In this document: piece after piece, positions 5,526 through 39,775 of the stretch
How positions within the stretch are numbered: the stretch's first letter is position 1
Layout: each line of letters starts with the position of its first letter
Assembly (NCBI GenBank): GCA_018896215.1
Contig: JAHINB010000011.1
Span: forward strand, 1-41,456
Length of the DNA stretch: 41,456 bases
Reading direction: 5' to 3'
From: Patescibacteria group bacterium
GTDB lineage: Bacteria; Patescibacteriota; WWE3; 0-14-0-20-40-13
Notes under the pieces: generated by a model
Told to the model about the DNA's origin: nothing
Database searches by the model: none
The model's input: the letters and a program-made list of their open reading frames with translations, nothing else
Position numbers and translations under genes: made by a program

Positions 5526-6454
5526 AAAAAAAATCTCCAGCAAGACCATTTGCTAAAATTTTTGTTTTTTCTCTATTTCTTTTGGGACTGCTGTTTGTTG
5601 CGCCCTCTCCCACATTTCTGTCTTCTAGTAATCTTTTGACCGAAGAAGATTTTATCTTAAAAAAAGGCGCGGTTGCCGGAGCTTCCGCAACAACTGTATC
5701 TACACTTAACAATAACCAGACGCCCGCTCCCTTGATAACAGCTACAAGCGCCATTGCTGTTAATGCAAAAACTGGAAAACCTCTTTACGAAAAAAACCCC
5801 GATGCTCCTCTTCCCCCAGCTTCGACTACCAAAATAGTAACCGCTTTGGTAATTTTGGAAAATTATGACTTGGCGCAAGTAGTTGCTATTCCTCCAACTT
5901 GCGTAGGACTTGATGAACCAACGGTGGGATTTTTCGCAAATGACCAGGTTACTATCGAAAGTCTGCTTTACGGAATGTTAGTTAAAAGCGCCTCGGATGC
6001 CGCGTGTTCCTTGGCTCATGTAAGCGCAAGCTATGGAGAGTTTATCAACAAGATGAATACTAAAGCCCAAGATTTAGGTTTAACCAGCACAGTTTTTAGT
6101 AACGAAATTGGGTTTGATAGCGAAGATCAAAACCAATTGACAACCGCAAGAGATTTATCAGTACTGGCGCAGGAGGCCATGAAAAACGATATTTTTAGAA
6201 TTATAGTTGGAACACGCGAAATAAAAGTCACCACAAATCTTTTTAAGAAAACCTATACTATTACAACTACCAACGAATTGCTCAAGGAAATTCCCGGAAC
6301 TACGGGAATTAAAACCGGTAATACCGAAAAAGCCAAAGGGTGTCTGGTTTACTCCTACGATAATCTGGGAAAGAAGATTCTAATTGTGATTTTGGGGAGT
6401 GATGATAGGTTTGGTGATGCTAAGAATATTTTGGATTGGATACTATTGCTTTAG
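5522..6454 (+). CDS. D-alanyl-D-alanine carboxypeptidase (peptidase S11)
   Basis: This 310-residue serine peptidase should trim the terminal D-Ala from peptidoglycan stem peptides outside the membrane. An N-terminal signal or anchor helix (about 9-26) and a linker precede the catalytic domain. The acylation motif SxxK is in PASTTKIVTAL. The third motif KTG is in GTTGIKTGNTEKAKGCLV. The second motif, normally SxN (SGNDA or SANDA), reads SASDAA here, so the usual Asn is Ser. Length is at the short end and the C-terminal beta domain of PBP5 is missing. The start overlaps the aspS stop by 4 nt. The 3' end overlaps the convergent gene by 12 nt. Confidence 0.88.
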   Translation: MKKKSPARPFAKIFVFSLFLLGLLFVAPSPTFLSSSNLLTEEDFILKKGAVAGASATTVSTLNNNQTPAPLITATSAIAVNAKTGKPLYEKNPDAPLPPASTTKIVTALVILENYDLAQVVAIPPTCVGLDEPTVGFFANDQVTIESLLYGMLVKSASDAACSLAHVSASYGEFINKMNTKAQDLGLTSTVFSNEIGFDSEDQNQLTTARDLSVLAQEAMKNDIFRIIVGTREIKVTTNLFKKTYTITTTNELLKEIPGTTGIKTGNTEKAKGCLVYSYDNLGKKILIVILGSDDRFGDAKNILDWILLL

Positions 6455-7619: not shown

Positions 7620-7684
7620 ATGGTACACCATCTAAGCTACTTTACAACCCCACAGGTTGCAAACTAGCCTAAGATGGGTATAGT
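7620..7684. promoter_or_regulatory. Back-to-back promoter element between anchored protein gene and rnhA
   Basis: Rightward: TTGCAA (7657-7662), 16-nt spacer ending in TAAGATGGG, then TATAGT (7679-7684), with the rnhA ATG 14 nt after the -10 begins. Leftward: TTGTAA (7647-7642), 16-nt spacer, TACCAT (7625-7620). The two halves are imperfect inverted copies (CCATCTAAGCTA versus TAGCCTAAGATGG). The same element recurs at 30439-30504, and one half recurs at the tRNA gene (20198-20225). Confidence 0.6.
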
Positions 7685-7692
7685 ATTTCTCT

Positions 7693-8103
7693 ATGGAAAA
7701 TTTAAAGGCGCAACTTTTTACCGACGGTGGATCGCGGGGCAACCCTGGACCCGCGGGCATTGGCTGGGCAATTTGGATTGAAGATAGAAGGAAAATAGGA
7801 GGACAACACATAGGAATAGCGACAAATAATGTAGCTGAATATCAAGCCTTAATCCGTGGTCTTGAGGAATGCTCTAAACTTGGGATCCAGATTGTTGATT
7901 GTTTTTTGGATAGCAATTTAGTGGTAAATCAAATGAAAGGATTATTTAAAATTAAACAAGCCCGTTTGGCAATTCTTGCCCAACAGGCAAAAGATATTGC
8001 CCTAAGGTTTGTCTCTGTTAGCTACACTTACATTCCCCGCGAAAAAAACACTCTGGCAGATAAAATGGCCAATAAGGCATTAGATAAGCATCTTAACAAT
8101 TAA
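7693..8103 (+). CDS. rnhA: Ribonuclease HI family protein
   Basis: This 136-residue RNase H-fold enzyme should cut RNA in RNA-DNA hybrids, such as primers and R-loops, in the cytoplasm. All four acidic catalytic positions are visible: Asp in FTDGGSRGNPGPAG near residue 11, Glu in NNVAEYQALI, Asp in FLDSNLVVNQM, and Asp in NTLADKMANKA. The length fits minimal bacterial and archaeal RNase HI (about 135-155), and the basic handle region is short. The ATG lies 14 nt after the start of a TATAGT -10, leaving a predicted leader of only about 2 nt and no room for a Shine-Dalgarno. It is monocistronic and converges on groEL with an 11-nt gap. Confidence 0.9.
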   Translation: MENLKAQLFTDGGSRGNPGPAGIGWAIWIEDRRKIGGQHIGIATNNVAEYQALIRGLEECSKLGIQIVDCFLDSNLVVNQMKGLFKIKQARLAILAQQAKDIALRFVSVSYTYIPREKNTLADKMANKALDKHLNN

Positions 8104-10265: not shown

Positions 10266-10300
10266 TTGACAGATAATATACAATATTGTATATTATCTGT
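10266..10300 (+). promoter_or_regulatory. abiE promoter fused to a 32-bp perfect palindrome
   Basis: TTGACA (10266-10271), 17-nt spacer and TATATT (10289-10294) form a near-consensus promoter. Positions 10269-10300 are a perfect 32-bp palindrome centred between 10284 and 10285. It covers the end of the -35, all of the spacer, and the -10. The ATG at 10303 is 14 nt after the -10 begins, so the mRNA should be essentially leaderless. AbiEi antitoxins are known to repress their own promoters through inverted repeats, so this is the expected operator. Confidence 0.75.
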
Positions 10301-10302
10301 GT

Positions 10303-10872
10303 ATGACATTTGAGAAATTTAGACAAGCAATAACCTCCTCTGTTTTTACTACAACAAGTGTGAGTGTAGCTTTTCCTTTAGAGTCTCCTCATTCTATAAA
10401 CATATCTCTCTATAGATTTGCGAGATCAAAAAAGATCGTGAGCATAAAAAGGGGTCTATATAAGTTCTTAGACTCAAAAATTGACGAATTTGCTTTGGCT
10501 GGAATTTTATACACTCCATCCTATGTAAGCATGGAAAGCGTTTTGAACTCTTGTGGAGTAATACCAGACATTCCTCTTTCCGTTACTTCCGTTACAACAA
10601 CCACCTCAAAAAAAATTGTCACTTCTATGGGAAATTATTTTTACTCTAAAATTCCATTAGAACTTTATTTTGGATTCGAAAAGATGGCAGATCCAATATC
10701 TGGGGTTTACTATAATATAGCTAACCCCGAAAAGGCTCTTTTGGACTATCTTTATGTCAGAAGGATTAAGAATCTAGCAAATTATCGAATTGACCTAACC
10801 CACCTTAATAGGATTAAACTTACAGAGTTTATTAAGCATTATCCATTGTGGTTGCAAAGAATATTACCATGA
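10303..10872 (+). CDS. AbiEi-like type IV antitoxin / transcriptional repressor
   Basis: This 189-residue protein has an N-terminal winged-helix region (residues 1-60, with YRFARSKKIVSIKRGLYKF, the usual AbiEi-type start) and a C-terminal domain with YVSMESVLNSCGVIP and NPEKALLDYLYVRR. Those motifs are typical of AbiEi antitoxins, which bind the promoter and counter the AbiEii nucleotidyltransferase. The gene overlaps the toxin start by 4 nt (ATGA). It is preceded by a 32-bp palindromic operator and no Shine-Dalgarno. Base composition is more AT-rich than the neighbouring groE genes, which would fit acquired DNA. Family assignment is by motif and context only. Confidence 0.8.
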   Translation: MTFEKFRQAITSSVFTTTSVSVAFPLESPHSINISLYRFARSKKIVSIKRGLYKFLDSKIDEFALAGILYTPSYVSMESVLNSCGVIPDIPLSVTSVTTTTSKKIVTSMGNYFYSKIPLELYFGFEKMADPISGVYYNIANPEKALLDYLYVRRIKNLANYRIDLTHLNRIKLTEFIKHYPLWLQRILP

Positions 10873-11654
10873 ATAATATAATTTCTAATTGGGAAAATAT
10901 CCAAAAATCGGCGGTGTTGCAGGGGCTTCCGGCAGACAAGAAAAGAGGATTAATTAGAGAATACCTACAATCAAAGTTTATTTACGAATTTTATGGCTTA
11001 AAAGAGGCTCAAAAATTGTCTTTTATTGGCGGAACGGCACTACGGCTTTTAAGAAATATTCCAAGATTCTCGGAGGATTTAGACTTCGACAATTTAGATA
11101 TTTCCGAAAAGAAAATAGGAGATTTGGTAAGCGAGGTTTGTGTAGTATTCCGAAAGGAAAATATTGAATGTGAGCTAGCAGTTAAAAAGAATGAAGGAAA
11201 GTTCTATTTTGAAATTAAGTTTCCCAATCTTCTTGAACCACTTAAAATAAGCAGCAACCTAAAGGAAAAACTGATGATAAAAATTGATTATTCTAGATCG
11301 TGGAAAAACCAAAGTTTGGAAACACAACCACTTTTAAGGTTCGGCTACGCTAGAGAAGTGTTAACAAACTCTCTTGATAATCTGACGGTACAAAAACTTT
11401 CTGCCTATGTTTTTAGAAAAGAAACCCAACCAAGAGATATTTATGATATTGTTTGGCTTTATGCGACGGGCGCAAGATTTGATCATAAATTTGCCAAAGA
11501 TAATGATATGAAAGATTTACTTAAACTGGCAACAGAAAAGTACAAGAACGAAGGGATAAAAAATGCCTTCTCCCAAAAGCTAGCTCCTTTTTTAATTAAT
11601 CCAAAGGAAACAAGTCTTCTAAGTACTTTTGGAGATGTTTTAAAGCGACTTTAA
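10869..11654 (+). CDS. AbiEii/AbiGii-family nucleotidyltransferase toxin
   Basis: This 261-residue protein belongs to the AbiEii family (DNA polymerase beta-like nucleotidyltransferase fold). It carries the signature FIGGTALRLL (about residues 52-61) followed by RFSEDLDFDNLD (about 66-77), which holds the paired Asp residues that bind metal. Relatives transfer nucleotides to tRNA and block growth, often limiting phage. An in-frame GTG exists 7 codons upstream, but the ATG at 10869 overlapping the antitoxin stop (ATGA) is the natural coupled start. The active motifs are intact, so the toxin appears functional. Confidence 0.85.
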   Translation: MNNIISNWENIQKSAVLQGLPADKKRGLIREYLQSKFIYEFYGLKEAQKLSFIGGTALRLLRNIPRFSEDLDFDNLDISEKKIGDLVSEVCVVFRKENIECELAVKKNEGKFYFEIKFPNLLEPLKISSNLKEKLMIKIDYSRSWKNQSLETQPLLRFGYAREVLTNSLDNLTVQKLSAYVFRKETQPRDIYDIVWLYATGARFDHKFAKDNDMKDLLKLATEKYKNEGIKNAFSQKLAPFLINPKETSLLSTFGDVLKRL

Positions 11655-20108: not shown

Positions 20109-20185
20109 TGGTTGCGGGTCCTCGGGCTCGCACCGAGGTTAAGCGGGATTATGAGCCCCGCGAGATACTGCACCTCCCACCCGCA
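20109..20185 (-). tRNA. Initiator-like tRNA-Met (CAU), unusual arms
   Basis: A cloverleaf reads leftward: acceptor TGCGGGT pairs fully with ACCCGCA, then A73 and an encoded CCA. The anticodon loop is CTCATAA, giving anticodon CAU, on a CGGGG/TCCCG stem rich in G-C as in initiator tRNAs. The 3' end CGCAACCA matches bacterial fMet tRNAs. Oddities: base 1 pairs with 72 (T-A) instead of the usual mismatch, position 8 is G, the D-loop TGCAGTA lacks the G18G19 pair, the T-stem has 6 bp, and the T-loop is TGCGAGC with G instead of T55. It may be a diverged but active tRNA or a decaying copy. A strong promoter precedes it. Confidence 0.75.
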
Positions 20186-20197
20186 ATGTGGGGCTAT

Positions 20198-20225
20198 TCT
20201 ATACCCATCTTATACTAATTTGCAA
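20198..20225 (-). promoter_or_regulatory. Promoter of the tRNA-Met gene (shared spacer motif)
   Basis: TTGCAA (20225-20220), 16-nt spacer ending in TATAAGATGGG, TATAGA (20203-20198). The -10 begins 18 nt before the mature tRNA, leaving a predicted 5-6 nt leader for RNase P. The spacer closely matches the rnhA and valS promoters (12 of 16 positions by eye). Confidence 0.65.
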
Positions 20226-29410: not shown

Positions 29411-30403
29411 ATGAAAATCCTTGGTATAGAAACAAGCTGCGATGAAACTTCAGTCTCTGTGGTCCAAGATGGCGCCAAAGTGTTAACTTTGGTAACTGCC
29501 ACTTCCTTGGAAATGCACAAAAAGACCCGAGGCATTACTCCCGAAAATGCGGCAAGAAAACAAGTGGAGTATATGATACCTGTTTTGCAGGAGGCTTTGT
29601 CGAATCAAGATGTAGATGCCGTTGCAGTTACTGAAAATCCCGGATTGATCGGGTCTTTGGTTGTGGGGGTAGAAACAGCAAAGGCTCTTAGTTTTGCTTT
29701 AGACAAACCGCTACATTTAATAAGTCACTTAATGGGGCATATCTATTCTTTGTGGTTGGACAAAAATAGAAAGGAGCAACCAAAATTTCCCTTTGTGGTT
29801 CTGCTTGTTAGCGGTGGGCACACTGAATTGTATTTAGTAAAATCGCATCAACAAATCAACTTTCTTGGGGGAACCCGCGACGACGCGGTTGGGGAATGCT
29901 TTGACAAAGTGGCAAGATCGTTAGAGCTTGGGTATCCCGGAGGACCGGCGATTGACGCCGAGGCGTCTAAAATTTTCAACTCTCAATTCTCAATTTATTT
30001 CGCTCTGCGAAACACCCGGAAGGTGTGCAATAAAAACACCTTCAAACTGCCCAAACCGATGATAACTTCCAAGGATTGTGAGTTTTCGTTTTCAGGTTTA
30101 AAGACAGCGGTTCATCGCATCACCCTTTCAAAAAAATTAAACAATGACGAGGTAACGCAACTGGCTTTTGAGTTTAGAGAAACTGCAGTTGAGATTTTAA
30201 TTTCTAAACTACTTTTTGCCTCAAAGATGAACCAGACAAAAAACATTGCTGTGGTTGGTGGGGTTGCGGCAAACGCGTTGCTCCGCCAGCGGTTGGAGGA
30301 GTTACGAAGTACTTATACAGTTTTTCTTCCCCACTTAAAGTACACTGGCGACAATGGAGCAATGATTGCAAGTAACGCCTACTTTAATAATTACTCTAAG
30401 TAG
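29411..30403 (+). CDS. tsaD: tRNA N6-adenosine threonylcarbamoyltransferase TsaD
   Basis: TsaD transfers threonylcarbamoyl to A37 of ANN-decoding tRNAs, with TsaB and TsaE as partners. The 330-residue protein shows the ASKHA fold: GIETSCDETSVSVV, metal ligands in SHLMGHIYSLW (H106 and H110), VSGGHTELYLV, DDAVGECFDKVAR, FSFSGLKTAVHR and VVGGVAANALLR. One oddity is an extra segment of about 15 residues (within 189-210, IFNSQFSIYFALRNTRKVCNK) between DAEASK and FKLPKPM, where relatives have a short loop. Its DNA contains two small hairpins, as if a repeat was inserted in frame. The core residues are intact, so activity is likely. Confidence 0.95.
   Translation: MKILGIETSCDETSVSVVQDGAKVLTLVTATSLEMHKKTRGITPENAARKQVEYMIPVLQEALSNQDVDAVAVTENPGLIGSLVVGVETAKALSFALDKPLHLISHLMGHIYSLWLDKNRKEQPKFPFVVLLVSGGHTELYLVKSHQQINFLGGTRDDAVGECFDKVARSLELGYPGGPAIDAEASKIFNSQFSIYFALRNTRKVCNKNTFKLPKPMITSKDCEFSFSGLKTAVHRITLSKKLNNDEVTQLAFEFRETAVEILISKLLFASKMNQTKNIAVVGGVAANALLRQRLEELRSTYTVFLPHLKYTGDNGAMIASNAYFNNYSK
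29972..30040. repeat. Hairpin-containing in-frame insert within tsaD
   Basis: The segment holds TTTCGC-TCT-GCGAAA and CACC-CGGAA-GGTG hairpins plus the short tandem CTCAATT-CTCAATT. The encoded residues have no counterpart in usual TsaD sequences and the frame is kept. Limits are approximate. Confidence 0.45.
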
Positions 30404-30415
30404 GCTTCACCCTTC

Positions 30416-30432
30416 GCTCGCCTTTGGCGAGC
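30416..30432. terminator. Hairpin after tsaD
   Basis: GCTCGCC-TTT-GGCGAGC is a perfect 7-bp GC-rich stem, 13 nt after the tsaD stop. No T-run follows, so it may be a weak terminator, a 3'-end stabiliser, or the boundary of the adjacent promoter repeat. Confidence 0.45.
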
Positions 30433-30435
30433 TAC

Positions 30436-30504
30436 GGGTATATACCCATCTAAGCTATTCTGACAACCCTTCGGGATTGCAAACTAGCGTAAGATGGGTA
30501 TACA
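30436..30504. promoter_or_regulatory. Back-to-back promoter element upstream of valS
   Basis: Rightward: TTGCAA (30477-30482), 16-nt spacer ending in TAAGATGGG, TATACA (30499-30504), with the valS ATG 14 nt after the -10 begins, the same geometry as rnhA. Leftward: TTGTCA (30466-30461), 16-nt spacer, TATATA (30444-30439) inside the palindrome GGGTATATACCC (30436-30447). The leftward half would transcribe antisense into tsaD. Confidence 0.65.
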
Positions 30505-30512
30505 ATCCTTAC

Positions 30513-39591: not shown

Positions 39592-39697
39592 TTTTCTAAA
39601 AATATATTTAAACATCTTTAAACAGTACCGTTGTTTAGACAATGGTACTAATAGTGAGATGCTGGTCTAACGCTCTAATTTAGGGAGTCTCCCTTTT

Positions 39698-39726
39698 AGG
39701 GTGACACCCTAAAAGGGTGTCACCCT
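39698..39726. repeat. 12-bp perfect hairpin GGGTGACACCC
   Basis: AGGGTGACACCC (39698-39709) pairs with GGGTGTCACCCT (39715-39726) around a TAAAA loop. Each arm is itself nearly palindromic. It lies downstream of the leftward membrane-protein gene and could end its transcript, but no T-run follows. Confidence 0.6.
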
Positions 39727-39775
39727 TAAACACCCTTAAACAAACCGTGGACTAGACTACGGTACTAAATGGGGG

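Follow-up and report, generated by a model that had tools for sequence, protein, structure and literature searches.

A putative MITE-like palindrome with a predicted promoter, dispersed through a Patescibacteria genome

An imperfect palindrome recurs, whole or as a single arm, at 11 places in the genome of the Patescibacteria group bacterium studied here (G000; 772,008 bases). The element is real, lies well above chance expectation and amounts to more than a shared promoter consensus, and we incline towards the view that it is a MITE-like palindrome which carries a promoter and has been dispersed through the genome. Its copies, its palindromy, its promoter-like geometry, the covariation of its arms and its absence from two syntenic loci of another genome (G001) are direct observations. 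To our knowledge, the promoters of this lineage are almost unstudied. Three copies lie in the window, which is the whole 41,456-nt stretch of DNA that was analysed, and in which a first-pass annotation had recognized promoters sharing TTGCAA, a near-identical 16-nt spacer and TATA before rnhA (TTGCAA 7657–7662, TATA 7679–7682), valS (TTGCAA 30477–30482, TATA 30499–30502) and, on the minus strand, tRNA-Met (TTGCAA 20225–20220, TATA 20203–20200); all three are located as described.

The 26-nt pattern TTGCAAANTAGNNTAAGATGGGTATA, allowing up to three mismatches, matched 11 places genome-wide, and the reversed control pattern matched none, the number of exact matches expected from base composition being about 1e-7. 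The TTGCAA-16-TATA arrangement with its near-invariant spacer is therefore found at eight places beyond the three already annotated (Table 1), and these further copies stand before genes, although the annotation had allowed that the motif might be absent elsewhere or unrelated to gene starts. The shorter 13-mer TAAGATGGGTATA has three exact matches in the window and a one-mismatch inverted partner at 30441–30453, which is the left arm at valS. Two further 13-mer matches with one mismatch each, at 6443 and 47659 of contig C3, were set aside as chance, since they lack the TTGCAA spacer and are not among the 26-nt matches.

The promoter arm of ten of the 11 copies has a gene no more than about 125 nt away, and the genes so faced include those for 5S rRNA, tRNA-Lys and tRNA-Met (the stable RNAs) as well as rpsA, valS, rnhA and genes for, among others, a sugar transferase and an AAA/DUF4143 ATPase; at C10:26541 the nearest ORF on the promoter side is ~570 nt away. 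The order on contig C8 is 23S, element, 5S, element, rpsA. Within the 23S rRNA gene, a group I intron match was also observed (L072:2862–3067). None of the copies was observed within a gene, where random insertion would be expected to place some.

Ten copies form an imperfect palindrome of ~62 bp, here called H2, and the tRNA-Met copy is a right arm only, with no hairpin (fold z +0.4). The mean identity of the G000 copies is 83%, the most central of them, with the highest identity to the others, being C6:4372, whose arms are perfect (24/24 pairs). The H2 consensus reads TATACCCATCT-AA-GCTA-Y-TTT-NN-CAACCC-loop-GGGTTG-C-AAA-C-TAGC-NTA-AGATGGGTATA, and its mispaired positions (AA/NTA, Y.C and NN.C) are themselves conserved in nearly all copies and genomes. 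The bulges of the two arms differ, yet the length from TTG to TATA is equal in both, and a core, AAANYAGC..TWAGA, is common to both arms and across families. The element ends in TATACCC...GGGTATA, with boundaries at TA|TACCC..GGGTA|TA and a terminal sequence, given for comparison with transposon ends, of TACCCATCTTA. It has inverted-repeat ends, no ORF and multiple dispersed copies, all of them MITE-type features. The inverted half that had been noted at valS and rnhA is present at the former (30441–30453) and degenerate at the latter (left arm at about 7624–7633), and the palindrome, put earlier at about 65 bp, measures 62 bp at valS (30441–30502).

A second hairpin, H1, abuts the left arm of H2 in six of the ten palindromic copies, bringing the combined unit to ~100 bp. 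It consists of a 4-bp foot, a 3 x 3 internal loop and a variable stem, is minimal at C6:4372 (ACCC-TAC-GGGT) and occurs with another interior and the same layout in two of the three copies of genome G014. A lone H1-type hairpin between TA dinucleotides, TATACCCGTAGCTCC...GAACGAAGGGTATA, at G000:C8:32674 (L067, near 1501), suggests that H1 may exist as a repeat in its own right as well. An H1-like palindrome, CTTCGCTCGCC..GGTGAGCTACA, was also observed in frame inside a gene named by eye as RsmA/KsgA-like (L060:1501–1524; G000:C3:20559), to which it adds about PTSLAVGELHRAG, in a manner resembling Rickettsia palindromic elements.

Table 1. Element copies, their parts and the genes that they face; positions are those of the window unless a contig is named.
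Feature	Position	Strand	Remarks
H1 at valS	30409..30439	+	foot ACCC/GGGT, 3 x 3 loop TTC/TAC, stem GCTCGCC/GGCGAGC
H2 at valS, TATACCCATCT...AGATGGGTATA	30441..30502	+	DNA fold z -5.6
Left outward-facing arm, valS, TTAGATGGGTATA	30441..30453	-	
-35-like TTGCAA, valS gene-facing arm	30477..30482	+	TTGCAA in 9/10 own palindromic copies
-10-like TACAAT, valS	30501..30506	+	TA in element, CAAT in flank; 6 nt from ATG 30513 (TACAAT CCTTAC ATG)
valS-like class I tRNA synthetase gene, 744 aa	30513..32747	+	downstream of element
Palindromic element before rnhA	7624..7682	+	left arm degenerate
-10-like TAGTAT, rnhA	7681..7686	+	6 nt from ATG 7693 (TAGTAT TTCTCT ATG)
rnhA-like RNase H gene	7693..8103	+	
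Half element before tRNA-Met	20196..20225	-	-35 at 20225-20220, -10 TAGAAT at 20201-20196
tRNA-Met (CAT)	20109..20185	-	
Other genes with TAnnnT 6 nt before the start	starts e.g. 10303, 11673, 13789, 17969, 18694, 29411	+	
-10, 6 nt and start, C6:4372			TATACT CAACCG ATG
-10, 6 nt and start, C16			TATGAT ATATGA ATG
26-nt matches inside window	rnhA, tRNA-Met, valS		
26-nt matches outside window	C6:4372, C6:42988, C7:14532, C8:22887, C8:23107, C10:18622, C10:26541, C16:5459		

The right, gene-facing arm very probably functions as a promoter, judging from its layout. It follows the sigma70 type, with a -35 and a -10 that are 16–18 nt apart and stand at a constant distance from the start of the gene. 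The TATA-n-n box previously placed 16 nt after TTGCAA is better read as a TAnnnT box after an 18-nt spacer; the repeat contributes no more than the TA of this box, and NNNT comes from the flank. The last T of the box lies beyond the palindrome; 12 of 15 aligned copies retain it, as does the tRNA-Met copy. At four genes (valS, rnhA, C6:4372 and C16:5430) the -10 box ends exactly 6 nt from the ATG; the TTG start at 30366 given for the valS-like gene in the ORF list is improbable. In 10 of the 33 genes of the window, TAnnnT and the start codon are separated by exactly 6 nt, against 2–4% expected (P 1.8e-9 with the genome as background, and about 1e-5 leaving out valS and rnhA). Since this exact spacing is also enriched across the window, the mRNAs of these four genes are probably leaderless, and leaderless mRNAs appear to be common in this genome; the leader of rpsA is longer and includes an AAAGGA-like site. 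A perfect palindrome, CAGATAATATACAATATTGTATATTATCTG, was also observed at 10270–10299 over the promoter of the gene preceding an AbiEii-type toxin gene (10848–11654); G001 shares the left part of this palindrome, which has the appearance of a toxin–antitoxin operator.

Homologues were found in three of several hundred relatives (G014, G020 and G072). A covariance model was first built from the G000 copies only, without foreign copies, and searched against 95 relatives, where it matched G014 at C12 (E 2.5e-8), C8 (7.2e-7) and C7 (0.025), G020 at C30 (2.9e-12) and G072, of another class, at C7 (2.5e-11); the last two lie on short contigs of fragmented assemblies and are possibly mis-binned. The C12 copy of G014 precedes an S1-domain, rpsA-like gene and its C7 copy precedes rpmE (L31), so that rpsA carries a copy of the element in two families. 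Among the rpsA-like loci of 29 other genomes of the class the element was found only in G014, even with filters off; none was found in the same-family genome G001, and the retrained model added nothing notable, whether in the class or among 380 genomes of the phylum. Weaker model matches (G020:C103, C5 and C37, G072:C24 and G150:C17) were dropped as unlike the element on reading, and occurrences of the bare 13-mer in 36 relatives were attributed to chance, their counts being similar to those of the reversed control. A search for the exact pattern across GTDB genomes, from which records near the genome itself may have been excluded, returned three matches, about the chance number, in unrelated bacteria, and no element was found in the viral contigs, plasmids and phages searched.

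In the alignment of 15 copies, 90.8% of cells are paired and 11 pairs have changed on both sides. All five measures of pairing exceed each of 500 shuffles (0/500), slid controls being 29–42% paired; as the structure was drawn from the same 15 sequences, this score is biased in its favour. The G000 copies alone contain four double changes (3/500 shuffles). Mismatches are balanced between G.T (16 cells) and A.C (13 cells) in this small sample, which favours a constraint at the level of DNA rather than of a sense RNA.

At two syntenic loci the element is missing in G001, a presence/absence variation such as MITEs show, seen here between genera rather than strains. At the locus of C6:4372, the glycosyltransferase and sugar-transferase genes of G001 are adjacent as in G000; the former ends in ...LNGFLSF* and is followed by a short spacer. 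The G000 glycosyltransferase ends in ...LDGYLSVMGGTPYGYIPI*, its final residues (a gain of MGGTPYGYIPI*) being encoded by H1 and the left arm. Likewise, the gene upstream of C6:42988 ends in LLFTLSAR* in G000 and in LLFKF* in G001. Before tRNA-Lys(TTT), G001 has TAAAAT 11 nt from the tRNA and G000 has element-TA|AAAT 12 nt from it, an arrangement, seen at one locus, that would be expected if the element had been inserted at the TA of an older -10 box or had replaced the sequence as far as that TA. Transposition, with duplication of a TA target, may be envisaged; neither a clean target-site duplication nor an exact empty site could be aligned. G001 belongs to another genus, and its intergenic DNA is not alignable. 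Neither a valS orthologue nor the tsaD–valS junction was found in the G001 stretches examined (about 440 kb of ~600 kb), and the insertion comparison therefore rests on loci other than valS.

No transposase with matching ends was identified within the Y1 family, on which this search was centred. Four Y1/RAYT-type genes occur in G000 (L162–L165, on C16, C20, C1 and C3), each flanked by its own palindrome pair, and mobilization by these genes was rejected because the palindromes at all four loci differ from the element; neither does the presence of Y1 genes across genomes track that of the element. The AGGGTGACACCCT-type palindrome at the C20 gene was observed to resemble window repeats near 316–378 and 39679–39729.

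The first-pass annotation had offered two accounts of the conserved spacer, and that of a mobile promoter unit is the better supported, on the strength of dispersed copies ~83% identical, a patchy spread over distant genomes, TA-bounded ends, lineage-specific presence at two syntenic loci and a promoter arm seated on the gene's -10 box where this is visible. Its alternative, a protein-binding site, survives as the main rival, a regulon operator: a dimeric or tetrameric regulator controlling translation and growth genes would bind the palindrome, which would overlap an ordinary promoter and would have been copied through selection or local duplication rather than transposition. This is unlikely, if still to be reckoned with: translation genes make up about half of the targets (5S, tRNA-Lys, tRNA-Met, rpsA and valS, with rpsA and rpmE in G014), rpsA has a copy in two families, every copy except one faces a nearby gene, and the AAANYAGC..TWAGA core is found in both arms across families. 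On the other hand, 62–100 bp is long for an operator, the compensatory changes are specific to single copies (4 cells, 3/500 shuffles), the adjoining H1, with its constant foot and changing interior, has no place in such a model, and no candidate regulator is known.

The annotation had also proposed a palindromic bidirectional promoter, in which two mirrored RNA polymerase sites would be kept for divergent transcription. The equal TTG-to-TATA length of arms with different bulges favours this, as do the left arm of C16:5430, which has TACAAT beside a divergent ORF, and an ORF start ~40 nt to the left of C10:26541. However, the left -10 is mostly TATACC, without the final T, which makes outward activity less certain; a divergent gene lies near the left arm in few copies only (C16:5430, C10:26541 and perhaps rnhA), and in most copies the left side adjoins or contains the end of a co-directional gene, so that this explanation is quite improbable. 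A shade less probable again is a structured RNA, namely a 5' leader regulator or processing site in which H1 and H2 would be transcribed from further upstream. The stable two-hairpin fold (z -6.8), the covarying arms and the copy between 23S and 5S rRNA speak for it, whereas G.T mismatches are not in excess of A.C and show no strand bias, no Rfam family reached the cut-off (the best, sucA, fell below it with E 0.16 on the antisense strand), leaderless geometry places the hairpin upstream of +1, and tRNA-Met has the promoter arm without any hairpin. Very improbable, finally, is palindromy kept by mutation alone, through template-switch correction between arms, with selection on the promoter arm only: the half copy at tRNA-Met retains just that arm and symmetric changes occur within copies, but correction would erase the mismatches that persist across copies and genomes.

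How the favoured MITE-like element might operate can be outlined tentatively, as a structure-conserved, two-hairpin plug-in promoter that, in small-genome bacteria, would seek out the TA of -10 boxes already in place and bring in a -35 and spacer of its own. The element would supply TTGCAA, the fixed spacer and the first two bases of the -10 (TA), leaving NNNT to the flank, and would sit at the TA of a TAnnnT box in place of the sequence formerly upstream. With the element seated on an existing TA, transcription of the gene would begin where it had before, often giving a leaderless mRNA, and the element may have spread, harmlessly or usefully, over core translation genes with such mRNAs, including a start between 23S and 5S rRNA. 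If so, this would be a self-spreading promoter that settles on the -10 boxes of essential genes with the transcription start unmoved, and a tiny genome could rewire the expression of 5S rRNA, tRNA and S1 in one step.

Several known systems share parts of this design. Bacterial bidirectional promoters are likewise described as pseudo-symmetric DNA able to fire both ways (PMC12825309, PMC10268837); here, the back-to-back promoter-like arms belong to a long repeat dispersed through the genome, and the -10 of the outward arm is usually incomplete. REP/REPIN sequences, moved by RAYT (Y1) transposases, are also described as dispersed hairpins (PMC8049555) with conserved unpaired positions, and Y1/RAYT-type genes occur in this genome, whereas the hairpin of the element does not flank those genes at the four G000 loci. 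RUP, ERIC and similar bacterial MITEs (PMC2229807) resemble the element in being non-autonomous, shorter than 200 bp and bounded by TA; they are not characterized by a conserved promoter, however, and no insertion sequence with ends matching the element was found within the Y1 family. The Correia elements of Neisseria (CREE/NEMIS) are small inverted-repeat sequences, often at TA, scattered upstream of genes (PMC2649163), and in their Black promoter a -35 and partial -10 lie inside the element and the insertion site completes the -10 (PMC2649163). A corresponding division is seen here, with TTGCAA...TA inside the element and NNNT in the flank, the T being present in 12 of 15 copies. In contrast to the 26-bp repeats around a core of CREE, the present element is a near-continuous palindrome of 62 bp (about 100 bp with H1), its promoter arm looks complete in almost every copy, whereas a minority of CREE have a promoter, and its host is not Neisseria. 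By analogy, the element may work like the CREE Black promoter, a likeness of design and not of membership, and would then add an independent instance of the "completed -10" device that Correia elements use.
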